From Gammaproteobacteria bacterium (lineage in GTDB: Bacteria > Pseudomonadota > Gammaproteobacteria > DSM-16500): a stretch of 36,957 bases of DNA. Below, in pieces: positions 8,308 through 35,802 of the stretch (its first letter is position 1; every line of letters starts with the position of its first letter). The stretch lies in contig JABDEF010000007.1 of assembly GCA_013287235.1 (NCBI GenBank), forward strand, positions 1 to 36,957, read 5' to 3'. The position numbers were made by a program, and so were the translations under genes. Under the pieces are notes generated by a model, which saw only the letters and a list, made by a program, of their open reading frames with translations, was not told the DNA's origin and ran no database searches.

Positions 8308-8508
8308 GTCGAAAACTCTCAAAATATGACCGTATCAAGTATACCGTAATTTTGTGGGTAAGGCCAGATGCCTGCTTTTATTTTACTCGCAAGTTATTTA
8401 TAATAAAAAAATATCTATTGCTTACAGAAAGTCACATATTAATAACATAATATCATCTTCTGTATATTTTAAACATGAAAGATAGAAAAACTTGAGGATT
8501 AAATTTCA

Positions 8509-8566: not shown

Positions 8567-10657
8567 ATGTTTTATCCTTGCATACAAGAAATTTCTTATC
8601 AAGATCCATCGCATTTGTTCTCTCATTTTTTTCATAAGAGTGGTAGTCTTCTTTTGGAAAGTGTAGAGCGGAGGGAGAATACCGGCCGTTATAGTTTTAT
8701 CGCAATTGATCCTTTCGCCATATTAAAAAGTAAAGCAAACAAAATAGAGTGGAATGGAGAAAAATTCGAGGGGAATCCATTTTATTTTTTAAAAGAAATG
8801 TTAAGTCGCTATCGACTTTCAACGATAGAAGATTTACCACCGTTTCAGGGAGGCGCTGCAGGATTTTTTTCATATGGTTTATTGCATCATTTAGAAAAAA
8901 TAACCGTTCAGCAAGAAGATAGAATGCAATTCGATGATATGGCGATTGGATTTTATGATATCGTCATTGGATTCGATCATCTTTTAAAACGTGCATGGAT
9001 TTTTTCGAGTGGATTTCCTGAAGAGACGCCTCGAAAAAGAGAAAGACGCGCACAAGAAAGATTGGAAAGTATATGTGAAAAAATAAAAAATTTACCGGTA
9101 TCAAATAAATTCAATTCGACATTTCGTATCGATGAAAAAGAGATTATCTCGAATTTTACGCGAGAAGAATATATGACGAAAGTTCGGGAAGTTGTCGACT
9201 ATATTTTAAAAGGCGATATTTTCGAAGCAAATATTTCACTCTGTTTTTCATCCACTTTACCTACCGATGTAAATGCGTATGATCTTTATCAACGCTTACG
9301 TTTTTTAAACCCAGCACCTTTTTCTGCATTTCTTCATTTTAATGAAACACAATTGGTTTCTGCATCGCCTGAACGATTTTTAAAAGTGAAAAATAAGACG
9401 GTTGAAACACGTCCCATCAAAGGCACACGAAAACGCGGAAAAACTCCGCTTGAAGATAGGATGCTTGAGACCGAATTATTACAAAGCGAAAAAGATCATG
9501 CGGAAAATATCATGATTGTGGATTTGTTGCGAAATGATTTATCCCGTGTTTGTGAAGAAGGAAGCGTCAATGTGCCACAATTATGTGGGTTAGAAAGTTT
9601 TGCGACCGTACACCATTTAGTGTCTATTGTCACAGGAAAGTTAAGAGAAGAGGCATCCCCTATCGATTTGATGATGGCGGCTTTTCCAGGTGGCTCCATC
9701 ACGGGTGCACCCAAAATTCGTGCAATGGAAATTATTGCAGAAATAGAACCCACAACAAGAGGTCCTTATTGCGGGAGTATCGGTTATTTGGGATTTAATG
9801 GTGATATGGATAGTTCTATCGTGATTCGAACGTTTGCAATAAAAAATCAGGATGTGACTTTTCAAGCGGGTGGGGCAATCGTCTTGGATTCGGATCCTGA
9901 ATCGGAATATGAGGAAGTGTTAACGAAGGCGTATGCTTTGAAAAGAGCGTTGATGGGCGAGGGTGATTTTGCCGTTATTGACTGTAAGTCATTGCGAGGA
10001 GCGTTAGCGACGAAGCAATCCAGCAATACTTTGCTGGATTGCTTCGTCGCTAACGCTCCTCGCAATGACATGAAAGCAGTTCGCGGGTCAAACCTGGTTT
10101 TACTTATCGATAACTATGATTCCTTTGTATACAACCTTGCACGTTATGTAGGAGAATTGGATTTTCCTTATCTTGTAAAAAGAAATGATGCGATTTCATT
10201 AGAAGAAATTGCGCAATTAAAACCACATAAAATTATTATTTCACCAGGGCCCGGCATTCCATCAGAGGCGGGTATTTCTTCTGATATTATTCGTTATTTT
10301 GGTGCAACGATTCCCATATTAGGCGTGTGTTTGGGTCATCAGGCAATCGGAGAAATTTTCGGTGGTGTGGTGAAAAGTGCAAAATTTCCTATGCATGGGA
10401 AAGCATCTGATATTATCCATGAGGGAAAAGGTTTATTTCAAAGTTTAAAAACACCTTTTCGTGCGGCACGCTATCATTCTTTGATCGTCGATGATGAAAA
10501 TTTTCCGGCTTGTTTAAAAGTGACGGCTCGCTCTGACACGAATGAAATCATGGCATTAGAACATCGTAAATTCCCTATTTTTGGTGTCCAATTCCATCCC
10601 GAGTCTGTATTGACCTCGGGAGGATATCAGTTGTTGCAGAATTTTTTAAGTTATTAA
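8567..10657 (+). CDS. pabB: Fused aminodeoxychorismate synthase PabB-PabA with a repeat-encoded linker
   Basis: A 696-residue fusion. Residues 1-465 are the chorismate-binding PabB part (SPERFLKV, LLRNDLSRVC, FPGGSITGAPK, PYCGSIGYLG). Residues 509-696 are a class I glutamine amidotransferase, PabA/TrpG type, with SPGPGIPSEAG, catalytic Cys588 in GVCLGHQ, and His677/Glu679 in FHPES. The motif RPIKGT carries Lys285, the residue specific to aminodeoxychorismate synthase; anthranilate synthases normally have Ala there, so this is folate (p-aminobenzoate) and not tryptophan synthesis. Residues 474-501 (SLRGALATKQSS through LLDCFVANAPRND) are translated from a perfect 39-bp inverted repeat. The ATG at 8567 is chosen because the domain begins there (AGG 4 nt upstream); a TTG at 8492 would add 25 unlikely residues. 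The end overlaps the convergent GHKL-like gene by 12 bp. Confidence 0.9.
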   Translation: MFYPCIQEISYQDPSHLFSHFFHKSGSLLLESVERRENTGRYSFIAIDPFAILKSKANKIEWNGEKFEGNPFYFLKEMLSRYRLSTIEDLPPFQGGAAGFFSYGLLHHLEKITVQQEDRMQFDDMAIGFYDIVIGFDHLLKRAWIFSSGFPEETPRKRERRAQERLESICEKIKNLPVSNKFNSTFRIDEKEIISNFTREEYMTKVREVVDYILKGDIFEANISLCFSSTLPTDVNAYDLYQRLRFLNPAPFSAFLHFNETQLVSASPERFLKVKNKTVETRPIKGTRKRGKTPLEDRMLETELLQSEKDHAENIMIVDLLRNDLSRVCEEGSVNVPQLCGLESFATVHHLVSIVTGKLREEASPIDLMMAAFPGGSITGAPKIRAMEIIAEIEPTTRGPYCGSIGYLGFNGDMDSSIVIRTFAIKNQDVTFQAGGAIVLDSDPESEYEEVLTKAYALKRALMGEGDFAVIDCKSLRGALATKQSSNTLLDCFVANAPRNDMKAVRGSNLVLLIDNYDSFVYNLARYVGELDFPYLVKRNDAISLEEIAQLKPHKIIISPGPGIPSEAGISSDIIRYFGATIPILGVCLGHQAIGEIFGGVVKSAKFPMHGKASDIIHEGKGLFQSLKTPFRAARYHSLIVDDENFPACLKVTARSDTNEIMALEHRKFPIFGVQFHPESVLTSGGYQLLQNFLSY
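9988..10069. repeat. Perfect 39-bp inverted repeat inside pabBA (CATTGCGA family)
   Basis: Arms 9988-10026 and 10031-10069 are exact reverse complements around a TACT loop. The outer end is GTCATTGCGAGGAGCG and the inner part GCAATCCAGCAA. It is open in the pabBA frame and encodes the linker between the two enzyme domains. Related copies lie at 34385-34485 (intact) and 12501-12588 (decayed), sharing GTCATTGCGA ends and an inner CAATCCAG/CTGGATTG. No transposase is encoded, so it is a small non-autonomous palindromic element, comparable in behaviour to the Rickettsia palindromic elements found inside reading frames. Confidence 0.9.
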
Positions 10658-12266: not shown

Positions 12267-12431
12267 CTCGACTTTGGCCATTTTTAAAATGGTGGGCACA
12301 CACTGCGCATGTTTTTGTAGGGTGGGCAAAGGTCGCTCTTTGAGCGTGCCCACCAATAAATCAAATCATATTAAAAATGCGCAGTGTTTTGCCCACCCTA
12401 CATAAAAAATTTAAAAATGGCCAAAGTCGAG
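12267..12431. repeat. Compound palindromic element with interleaved inverted repeats
   Basis: Outer arms 12267-12288 and 12410-12431 are a perfect 22-bp inverted repeat (starting CTCGACTTTGGCC). Inside are three more pairs: TGGTGGGCAC 12290-12299 with 12346-12355; CACTGCGCAT 12301-12310 with 12377-12386; and GTAGGGTGGGCAAA 12317-12330 with 12388-12401. A small CGCTC/GAGCG hairpin sits at 12334-12346. The inner pairs cross one another and do not nest, so mutually exclusive folds or a pseudoknot are possible. No coding sequence. Confidence 0.8.
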
Positions 12432-12500: not shown

Positions 12501-12588
12501 AACTATTCACCGTCAATCCAGAAGGTCTCTCTGGATTGCTTCGCCTCGTAAAAAGCACTCGACTCGCAATGACGGTGGTGAATGGTTA
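12501..12588. repeat. Decayed copy of the CATTGCGA-family palindrome
   Basis: The right half keeps CTGGATTGCTTC, CCTCGTAAAAAGCAC and CGCAATGACGG as in the copy at 34385-34485. The left half has lost most of its arm, leaving CCGTCA joined to ATCCAGA. Flanking ATTCACC and GGTGAAT pair as well. It ends at the stop region of the J-like gene (12586), so it sits at a transcript end. Confidence 0.65.
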
Positions 12589-18067: not shown

Positions 18068-18104
18068 CCTTTTTACTCCCTTCCTATTAGTAAGACCCCG
18101 TCTT

Positions 18105-18178
18105 CCCGTAATGTTTTTATACGGGACCTCTTGTAGGAGATCTCGGGCAAGAGGTCCCGTATAAAAACATTACGGGAC
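18105..18178. repeat. Perfect 30-bp inverted repeat (TCCCGTAATG family)
   Basis: Arms 18105-18134 (TCCCGTAATGTTTTTATACG and on through GGACCTCTTG) and 18149-18178 are exact reverse complements around a 14-nt loop. The pairing extends outward with one mismatch to roughly 18100 and 18183. It lies in the 122-bp gap between the small gene starting at 18067 and the end of the ABC-F gene (18190). It could end the ABC-F transcript. No second full copy is in the window. Confidence 0.8.
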
Positions 18179-18189
18179 GACGAGAGTGA

Positions 18190-21372: not shown

Positions 21373-22842
21373 ATGTCTCTTACCACACGTCAGGCTACTA
21401 GTGAGCTAGAACAAACTTTTACCAAGGCGCTTATTGAAACGATTCAACTCGTAAATTCAACACCTCGAGATCAGCGCGGTGTTTGGTATTATGATGATTA
21501 CCATGCGTACTGTCAGGAACACAAGATTTCTTTTAAGGAAGATCTAAGAACAGGGTTTGCCAATCCAGAATATTGGAAAAAGACTGGCAGATGTACTTTT
21601 GAATTAAAAGATGGAAAAAAGCCTAGCGAAGCTATTAAAGCATTTATGAGTGGTTTTACGATAGCGGATTGTGGCAATATAATTACAGTAGCTAAATATG
21701 CAGCATTGTTAAAAGTTTTGGGGGAAGAAAAGTTTAATTTACTTTTTAGCACTTCCTGCGCATCTTTAATCATTAGTCAAAACCTTTATGAACGTACAGC
21801 ACCCACTTCCTCTTTCTTTTTTGATGTTTTAAATAATGACACTGCAAGCCCAGGTGAAATAGGTTCTCGACCGGTGGTTGCTGGGGATATGTGTCATTTG
21901 AGAGGAGTCTTTTTTTATCGTAATAAACATCCAGCTGGTACCTCAAGCGGATTTAATGTCGTTTGTGTTGGAAAAAATGAAGCTAAAGAAGATCTATTTA
22001 TAGGTTTTGGACCGAACACATTTATTAAGCCTTTAACTGAGCGAGAGTTTCAAGAAGTTTTTATTCGTTATTATAATTTAGATAGGAGTACTTTTGATAT
22101 GGAACTTCTTAGAGGAGCTTCCTTGCGTTTCGAAGAAAAATTATCTTTTCCGGAAGATGCGCCATGCGTAGACGGATTTTTACCTGGATCAGTCGTTCGT
22201 CCTGACTTTAAAAAAATCAATGCGTATGTTTTGGCAGATCAAAATATCGTAGTTAGAAAGTTTTATTCAGAATTGAAAGATGAAGGTGAGTTAAGAACAT
22301 CAAAAGAAAAGTCAGTTTCAGAAGATAAAGGTTTAATATTGCAGATGGAAATGCTGCGCTCACAGTGCTCACACCATACTATGACAAATTACTCAGACCA
22401 TACTATGACAATGTGCTTACAGCTAGATTTAGATTCGCCATCAGTTTCAAAAAGTGAGTTTGATGAATTAAATAAAATATTGGGTAAATATCCAGATAAT
22501 GTTAAAGCGCGGCTTAAAAGAGCGCTTTTTTATAGAAACAAAGCAGAATACAAAAATGCTCTTGATGATTATGATCATGTCTATAAACAGTATAAAACTC
22601 ATCAGGAAGCCTCTGAAGGAGTCGCTTTTTGTAAAAAAATACTAGGGATAGTAAAAAATAAGTCTGAAGGAGCTTCGCTAGCATCAGAAGTTCATTCCGA
22701 AACGGTTGCTCCATCAAGCAGTGCTATTGGTAGTATATATAGCACAGGTTTTACGACATTTTCCTCAACGCTTGCTTCACGAAGATCGGTTGTTTCATCA
22801 ACCCGTTCAGAATGTCCGACACTTTCTTCCTCGGAGGTATAA
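21373..22842 (+). CDS. Tgl-like transglutaminase domain protein with TPR-like region, effector candidate
   Basis: A 489-residue protein whose residues 60-215 resemble the Bacillus spore-coat transglutaminase Tgl as I remember it: YWKKTGRCTFELKDG matches its YW...ELK segment; PSEAIKAF, then IADCGNIITVAKYAALLKVL and GEEKFNLLF follow the order of the Tgl PSKAI, FECATAIVIIYYLAL and GEDKFN blocks, placing Cys100 on the Tgl catalytic Cys. VVAGDMCHLRGVFFYRN and SGFNVVCVGKNEAKE match LGDCLYFKN and GENVILLGEDKYF. Asp99 stands where Tgl has Glu115, and Phe194 where it has Glu187. Residues 365-430 look like TPR helices (NVKARLKRALFYRNKAEY), and the last 50 are Ser/Thr-rich and disordered. No signal peptide. 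Protein crosslinking or deamidation of host proteins is a plausible but unproven role. Confidence 0.7.
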   Translation: MSLTTRQATSELEQTFTKALIETIQLVNSTPRDQRGVWYYDDYHAYCQEHKISFKEDLRTGFANPEYWKKTGRCTFELKDGKKPSEAIKAFMSGFTIADCGNIITVAKYAALLKVLGEEKFNLLFSTSCASLIISQNLYERTAPTSSFFFDVLNNDTASPGEIGSRPVVAGDMCHLRGVFFYRNKHPAGTSSGFNVVCVGKNEAKEDLFIGFGPNTFIKPLTEREFQEVFIRYYNLDRSTFDMELLRGASLRFEEKLSFPEDAPCVDGFLPGSVVRPDFKKINAYVLADQNIVVRKFYSELKDEGELRTSKEKSVSEDKGLILQMEMLRSQCSHHTMTNYSDHTMTMCLQLDLDSPSVSKSEFDELNKILGKYPDNVKARLKRALFYRNKAEYKNALDDYDHVYKQYKTHQEASEGVAFCKKILGIVKNKSEGASLASEVHSETVAPSSSAIGSIYSTGFTTFSSTLASRRSVVSSTRSECPTLSSSEV

Positions 22843-23593: not shown

Positions 23594-23596
23594 TTA

Positions 23597-24733
<1,137 letters not shown>

Positions 24734-24737
24734 AGAT

Positions 24738-24811
24738 GTCATGCCAGCATGCTTTTAGCTGGCATCCAGAAAGACCTCTCTGGATGCCAGCTAAAAGCAT
24801 GCTGGCATGAC
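24738..24811. repeat. Perfect 33-bp inverted repeat between obgE and rpsT (GTCATGCCAGCATGCT family)
   Basis: Arms 24738-24770 and 24779-24811 are exact complements with an 8-nt loop (AAGACCTC). It begins 5 bp after the obgE stop and ends 16 bp before the rpsT stop, so it lies between convergent genes and probably ends both transcripts. Partial copies occur at 1044-1067, 20148-20176 and perhaps 21184-21209. Confidence 0.85.
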
Positions 24812-24826
24812 AAGGTGACAATTTCG

Positions 24827-34384: not shown

Positions 34385-34485
34385 CCGTCATTGCGATGCC
34401 TCGTGCTTTTTACGAGGTGAAACAATCCAGAAAAGCTTTTTGGATTGCTTCACCTCGTAAAAAGCACGAGGCATCGCAATGACGG
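34385..34485. repeat. CATTGCGA-family palindrome between divergent genes
   Basis: A long near-perfect inverted repeat: CCGTCATTGCGATGCCTCG at the left, its complement CGAGGCATCGCAATGACGG at the right, and an inner CAATCCAG/GGATTG pair around AAAGCTTT. It lies between the divergent hydrolase and IcmD-like genes, so it may influence both promoters. Same family as 9988-10069. Confidence 0.85.
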
Positions 34486-35245: not shown

Positions 35246-35251
35246 GAAAAT

Positions 35252-35330
35252 AAATCCCCCCGCCTGTGCCTCGCTCGGCGACCCCCTTTGAAAAAGGGGG
35301 GCGACGAGCGAGGCACAGGCGGGGGGATTT
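35252..35330. repeat. Palindrome with AAATCCCCCCGCC outer arms and a CCCCCTTTGAAAAAGGGGG core
   Basis: Outer arms 35252-35277 and 35305-35330 are a perfect 26-bp inverted repeat; the centre carries ACCCCCTTTGAAAAAGGGGG. The modules are the same as at 23597-23715 but nested inside out. It fills the gap between the convergent EexN-like and rlmH genes and is followed on the plus side by TTTTTT, so it makes a good terminator. Confidence 0.85.
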
Positions 35331-35331
35331 T

Positions 35332-35802
35332 TTACATCCGATGATACGGATGTCCCTGTAAAATACTGATCGCACGATAAAGTTGTTCGACCACTAAAAC
35401 ACGAACAAGTGCGTGGGGGAAAGTGAGGGGTGAGAGTGACCATTTGATATTGGCTTTTTTGAGGCAAGTTTCTGATAATCCATCTGGGCCGCCAATGAGT
35501 AAATCAATATTTTTCCCTTCTGTTTGAAACTGCTTTAATTTTTCGGCTAATTTTTCCGTGGACCAGGATTCTCCTTTCACATCCAACGCAATCATGACAT
35601 GTCCGGGTTTGAGGGCTTTCATGAGTTTTTCACTTTCGTTTTCAATGATACGTGGAATGTTGGATGAGGGGGTGCGCTTTTCAGGCGAAATTTCCAGTAG
35701 TTCGAATGGGTAGGACGGAGGAAACCGTCTCGTGTAGGTTTGAAAACCTTGTTCTACCCATTCTGGCATTTTGTTACCGACCGCCAGTAGACGTACGCGC
35801 AT
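35332..35802 (-). CDS. rlmH: 23S rRNA (pseudouridine1915-N3) methyltransferase RlmH
   Basis: A 156-residue SPOUT methyltransferase of the family's usual size (about 155). It methylates pseudouridine 1915 in helix 69 of 23S rRNA on assembled 70S ribosomes. MRVRLLAVGNKMPEWVEQGF, the SAM-binding trefoil-knot parts IDLLIGGPDGLSE and LSPLTFPHALVRVLVVEQLYRA, and the C-terminal HPYHRM are all diagnostic. Its start lies 29 bp inside the end of rsfS, so translation is coupled. Its stop touches the neighbouring palindrome. Confidence 0.96.
   Translation of the reverse strand: MRVRLLAVGNKMPEWVEQGFQTYTRRFPPSYPFELLEISPEKRTPSSNIPRIIENESEKLMKALKPGHVMIALDVKGESWSTEKLAEKLKQFQTEGKNIDLLIGGPDGLSETCLKKANIKWSLSPLTFPHALVRVLVVEQLYRAISILQGHPYHRM

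Follow-up and report, generated by a model that had tools for sequence, protein, structure and literature searches.

A REP-like palindrome translated in frame between PabB and PabA: a candidate origin for a fused aminodeoxychorismate synthase

Palindromic repeats that lie in frame within genes are well known, as the accessible parts of three papers attest (PMC3733652, PMC2229807, PMC2759123). Rickettsia palindromic elements (RPEs) are inserted within single genes, and the gmk product carrying such an insert is active (PMC2229807, accessible text). CGTC-tagged REPs are units of 20–40 bp with an 8–9 bp stem and a 4–5 nt loop that bear an unpaired CGTC tag (or TGTC/CCTC) at one end; they are found mostly near gene ends and sometimes inside ORFs, Coxiella burnetii is among their hosts, and two Rickettsia elements, RPE-4 and RPE-6, have been assigned to them as CGTC-4 and CGTC-1 (PMC3733652, Di Nocera et al. 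2013; accessible text). A third case is an amidase gene that carries RU-1, a small mobile sequence, at its 3' end; the element appears to have removed the stop codon and so to have lengthened the protein (PMC2759123, Delihas 2007; accessible text).

Here we describe an 82-bp palindrome that is translated in frame between two enzyme domains, PabB and PabA, within a window of 36,957 nt, by which we mean the whole stretch of DNA that was analysed. It shares with the RPEs that a palindrome is translated in frame inside a conserved enzyme gene, and differs from them, as far as the accessible text of PMC2229807 describes their insertion within single genes, in that two enzyme genes are joined. In elements of the RU-1/ERIC type the ORF gains element-encoded residues (PMC2759123, accessible text), whereas in the present gene the following complete enzyme is attached as well. 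RPEs are defined by their presence in Rickettsia genomes, and PabB of the window groups with gammaproteobacterial sequences; the parallel to RPEs that had been drawn in a sequence-only reading of this DNA thus holds by analogy only, and the motifs of the element resemble those of CGTC-tagged REPs. In the literature that was searched, largely without subscription papers, no repeat joining two complete operon enzyme genes was found. It is this joining that appears to be new, in-frame palindromes being known already.

Two-domain aminodeoxychorismate synthases also exist elsewhere, as in PDB 8hx6 (702 aa), where PabA-type and PabB-type parts form one chain as they do here (the PabA-type part is deduced from the chain length and two matched stretches). 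The PabB match in 8hx6 covers positions 299–696 and is hence C-terminal, whereas the present protein begins with PabB and has a repeat as its linker.

The fused gene and its palindrome

8567..10657, + strand: single ORF, PabB-PabA fusion of 696 aa (aminodeoxychorismate synthase components I and II)
9988..10026, + strand: left arm of the palindrome, 39 nt
10027..10030, + strand: loop TACT, 4 nt
10031..10069, + strand: right arm, 39 nt, exactly complementary to the left arm

Exactly complementary arms, a frame open through both of them and the presence of both enzyme domains had all been claimed before, and each was confirmed. The arms are 100% complementary, and the frame is unbroken from the ATG at 8567 through the palindrome to the stop at 10657 (a mechanical ORF list places the first start further upstream, at a TTG at 8492). 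NCBIfam trpE_most is matched from 10 to 454 of 455 and trpG_papA from 2 to 191 of 192, and the Pfam listing for P0002 comprises PF04715, PF00425, PF00117 and PF07722. By family profiles each domain is nearly full length, PabB occupying residues 1–461 and PabA about residues 510–694 of P0001. The translation contains GVCLGHQ, FHPES and PIKGT, which we take to be catalytic motifs.

In a structure model based on 35 aligned proteins (mean pLDDT 83.8), residues 468–506 are the sole stretch below 50. As low values are confined to this stretch, the protein is predicted to consist of two confidently folded domains and a loose linker, made up chiefly of palindrome-encoded residues (SLRGALATKQSSNTLLDCFVANAPRND); the flexible connection between PabB and PabA would be about 40 residues long.

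The palindrome does not represent a chance arrangement, because the predicted fold of the RNA from 9960 to 10110 is more stable than any of 200 shuffled versions (-92.6 kcal/mol vs -40.6, sd 3.9; z -13.4; 0/200 equally stable). Its G+C content is 52%, vs 38% for the gene parts, and among the three frames only that of PabB-PabA is open across the whole 82 bp, the other two containing stops. Of the six inverted repeats in the window whose arms are at least 37 nt long, none of the others is as exact (100% vs 89–97%), so that the earlier suggestion of a recent event is reasonable, if weakly founded. In this natural setting, ribosomes have to traverse a 39-pair hairpin inside a probably metabolically important gene.

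No target duplication of 2–12 nt occurs at the ends of the palindrome, where a single A is the only match; shifting the ends by up to 3 nt gives two 2-nt direct matches, which is chance level. This distinguishes the 82-bp palindrome from a MITE, for which a target site duplication is expected. No transposase family was detected among the window ORFs that were scanned (a part of them), no intrinsic terminator was listed at the palindrome, and an Rfam scan returned a tRNA as its sole match. A weak 5-pair terminator candidate is located at 10084–10096, 15 nt past the palindrome. An outer stem prolonging the palindrome was considered and discarded, the pairing of the flanks being no better than chance (112 of 1729 control pairs were equally stable).

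A dispersed REP-like family

34385..34485: second palindrome, sharing the end motifs CCGTCATTGCGA ... CAATCCAG with the copy at 9988–10069; intergenic, with a 7-nt overlap with one gene start
12510..12575, - strand: degenerate third copy, intergenic

Judged by its letters and their distribution, the palindrome in the fused gene qualifies as a copy of a dispersed REP-like family. The 82-bp query gave matches at E 0.01 or better in 10 of 23 genomes, which were a non-random choice with good PabB hits from the class of L006 (Gammaproteobacteria); the best genome match, in G100, was 82% across the full 82-bp length. When 54 listed places were fetched from six of the genomes, the element was present at the set threshold in 47 and absent in 7. 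Most of these copies (43 of 47) do not overlap any ORF of at least 120 aa, three overlap an ORF end and one (L187) falls within an ORF close to its start, with the reservation that several G406 copies border on a contig end or a run of N, so that ORFs there may be truncated. In the copies that were printed, an outer GTCATTGCGA and an inner AAGCAATCCAG are mostly kept and the stretch between them is variable. At some loci of G406 (L143, L150, L170–L173) the element is nested in a larger inverted repeat (ATCCACTTTAAAATTAGGAGTTTC...), a composite that occurs in many copies.

Matches outside cellular genomes were few. A 36-nt piece of the arm had 0 matches among viral contigs, a phage search gave no match to the element, and a plasmid search returned 2 Methylocystis records with 44% of the query covered. 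The matches listed by a literature search with the letters of the element look like unrelated primers or oligonucleotides.

Each arm reads GTC-ATTGCGAG...AAGCAAT-CCA. The outer GTC, the AT at the start of the stem (ATTGC...GCAAT), the short CCA tail, the arrangement as inverted pairs and the many dispersed, mostly intergenic copies in relatives all have their counterpart in CGTC-tagged REPs, as characterised in the accessible text of PMC3733652. Judged against the same text there are also differences. The first tag base of that family is C, whereas the palindrome in the fused gene has A (AGTC at 9987–9990); the copy at 34385 has the ends CCGTC...GACGG, and in 5 of the 10 printed G100 copies the base preceding GTC (GTG in L158) is T, T, T, G and C. 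By our own reading the tags lie outside, in a tail-to-tail arrangement that is rare for CGTC; a unit with the dimensions given above is not seen by eye; and the element is predicted to fold into a single 39-pair hairpin, unlike the short stem-loop of that family. Finally, two genes are joined by the present copy. Because the tag base is A and a short stem-loop unit is not evident, we call the element REP-like and do not count its CGTC membership as proven.

A search with the linker only (3 proteins from 4 candidates) retrieved, besides the window's own protein, two that are MnmG by Pfam, namely P0242 (817 aa, E 1.8e-4) and P0243 (718 aa, E 6.3, which is not significant alone). Both contain SLRGALATKQS, which points to a related repeat read in the same frame inside another conserved gene. 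Apparent translated repeat segments are found at two places, and they are unlike between the two MnmG proteins.

The pabB/pabA junction and the origin of the fusion

8567..9987, + strand: pabB part; with the palindrome excised, 474 aa followed by TGA
10070..10657, + strand: pabA part, 195 aa counted from the ATG at 10070
10070..10073, + strand: ATGA; with the 82 bp excised, the TGA of pabB overlaps the ATG of pabA
10094..10096, + strand: CTG at the usual PabA start position, relatives having MILLIDN and this protein LVLLIDN

Of the explanations that we considered for the fusion, we favour one in which it was made by insertion of the palindrome, and we would put the probability of this at about 60%. 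We do so because excision of the 82 bp restores ATGA and because in the nearest relatives by the tree PabB and PabA are separate proteins. When exactly 82 bp are excised, the pabB frame reads GAC TGT AAA TGA, and pabA continues from the restored ATG for 195 aa without a further stop; the PabB-only relatives P0004, P0006 and P0009 have 475, 465 and 465 aa. Since 82 is 1 mod 3, a clean insert fuses two frames that overlap by -4 and no other change is needed, which removes the need, stated in the sequence-only reading, for flanking bases to have been gained or lost. By a hand estimate from base composition, the probability of ATGA following an in-frame element is about 0.5%. The empty site is reconstructed from the DNA of the window, not from that of a close relative.

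We infer the order of events, the mode of insertion and a single working polypeptide as follows. Before the insertion, the pabB stop and the pabA start would have overlapped as ATGA. A non-autonomous REP-like repeat, related to CGTC-tagged REPs, would have landed at this operon junction; copies are usually near gene ends, and here the end of pabB would have doubled as the start of pabA. The 82 bp (1 mod 3) would have entered one base 5' of the pabB stop codon, with no target duplication, and would be read in their sole stop-free frame. This would have shifted pabA into the pabB frame, giving one gene and a PabB-PabA protein. PabA's own start would now be dispensable, and its usual position reads CTG.

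The presumed ancestral arrangement is a frequent one. A -4 overlap (NTGA) was found in 31 of 53 distinct junctions from fetched loci with pabB 5' of pabA on the same strand, the other 22 differing, and is the commonest junction type among these loci, a count that includes pairs at a greater distance (around 35% PabB identity), some of which may be trpE-trpG and not pabB-pabA. At a PabB identity of at least 50% the overlap occurs in 3 of 5 (L066, which has part of PabB, L118 and L006; L117 and L133 lack it). Before removal of duplicates the loci comprised 56 with separate genes, one that looked fused (L122), 9 with pabA upstream, 6 with the genes on opposite strands and one with the genes far apart.

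L122, in genome G100, was left out of the 53 junctions because of N bases at its junction. It had been a candidate for a second fusion and was rejected, as its frame is set by two N bases there. That a gap of N produced a false fusion at L122, and that the fusion in the window rests on one record, are reasons to consider an assembly or sequencing artefact, either of the fusion or of the exact palindrome. We regard this as very improbable, since the frame is open on either side, both domains are present and the excised state is biologically sensible. An 82-bp palindrome is also shorter than the usual short read, which counts against an assembly artefact.

The restored pabA start at 10070 precedes the usual PabA start by 8 codons. 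Among the listed PabA proteins, 110 of 120 start at the conserved motif, and another five do so as judged by eye. In L097 an extended PabA has an ATG that forms an ATGA overlap, a precedent by which such an extended start is possible but uncommon. The in-frame ATG immediately 3' of the palindrome could also mean that the element sits at the junction while PabA is made mainly from its own start at 10070, with separate or mixed products. We consider this improbable: no AGGAGG-like site is seen by eye before this ATG, which abuts the 39-pair hairpin, and the pabB stop, through which translation could be coupled, has been moved out of the way.

The fusion is missing from the proteins nearest in the tree. 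With the window's own protein excluded, 118 of the 119 listed PabB relatives have PabB domains only, and for at least 49 of the 119 the longest contig has the same length as that of a separate PabA in the PabA listing, an indirect sign that both proteins are encoded on one contig, though not necessarily side by side. In a careful tree (26 rows), PabB of the window groups with P0006 and P0009 (support 90/89, below the level starred by the tool); the contig-matched PabA proteins of these two, P0124 and P0135, start with MILLIDN and MILVIDN. A quick tree (63 rows) adds P0007 to this group (84). Genome samples of the order, class and phylum, two of which drew on almost one and the same set of genomes, gave a whole-length PabB identity of 56% at best; the 64% of L066 covers just a part of PabB. 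Where the listed hits carry a name, which few do, it is that of Gammaproteobacteria, apart from one Chlamydiales, one Pseudomonadota and one uncultured bacterium. One relative, P0128 (PabA, 208 aa), has a C-terminal tail, RHPERREGSPDKRRVPSLRSR, which resembles a translated repeat of another kind.

The remaining listed PabB relative, P0003 (663 aa), carries both domains and is itself a PabB-PabA fusion, with the palindrome absent from its protein, so a fusion does not need the palindrome. A tree placing P0003 with the window was rejected (p-AU 0.028), a result to be read with caution because P0003 is a long branch. As this pairing was rejected, the fusion has probably arisen at least twice, once without a palindrome visible in the protein.

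The existence of P0003 lends some weight to a reversed order of events, in which a small indel fused the genes and the element later entered the linker in frame and was tolerated. Excision of 84 bp (1+82+1, 2+82 or 82+2) also leaves an open frame, and had the insert been of this length, the fusion would have preceded the element; the end bases of the element do vary among copies, as described above, and the two MnmG proteins appear to contain in-frame copies. We nevertheless think this order rather unlikely, as it calls for two events, the second of which would have had to hit a site immediately next to a leftover ATG, there is no support for P0003 as the sister of the window protein, and relatives with PabB domains only prevail. 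The earlier proposal that a mobile element was inserted in the linker, or made it, is upheld in that the palindrome is a copy of a dispersed family. Of the two readings offered with it, tolerance in a pre-existing linker fits less well than the making of the fusion by the element, because exact excision restores ATGA.

If insertion of the palindrome made the fusion, this would illustrate, in one small case from nature, how dispersed repeats can give rise to fusion proteins, here from two neighbouring folate-making genes. We tentatively extend this to other translationally coupled gene pairs joined by ATGA, for which it is conceivable, at somewhat less than even odds, that a stop-free insert of 1 mod 3 yields a bifunctional protein in one step, palindromic repeats at gene ends being a route to fusion enzymes and pabBA an example caught in the act. 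Should short repeats fuse -4 pairs in one step, some bifunctional enzymes would have a concrete, testable origin, and the place to look would be 1 mod 3 repeats at formerly overlapping junctions.

Other repeats and proteins in the window

Long inverted repeats in the window tend to be located at gene borders, with 5 of the 6 lying within 7 nt of an ORF end or overlapping one by at most 8 nt, as measured on 32 ORFs picked from 44 (by those 32, the window is 92% coding). Four of these belong to other sequence types and are 0–7 nt from an ORF end or overlap it by at most 8 nt:

18099–18182: long inverted repeat
23594–23718: long inverted repeat
24737–24812: long inverted repeat
35249–35333: long inverted repeat

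A set of nested inverted repeats is found at 12267–12431, where exact 22-nt arms are 121 nt apart and enclose two more pairs of arms. Two proteins may also be mentioned. The one encoded at 21373–22842 (489 aa) matches PF20085 (protein-glutamine gamma-glutamyltransferase) over residues 51–127 only. The other, at 24–1034, contains a U-box domain (PF04564), which is a domain of eukaryotic type and hints at a host-associated life.
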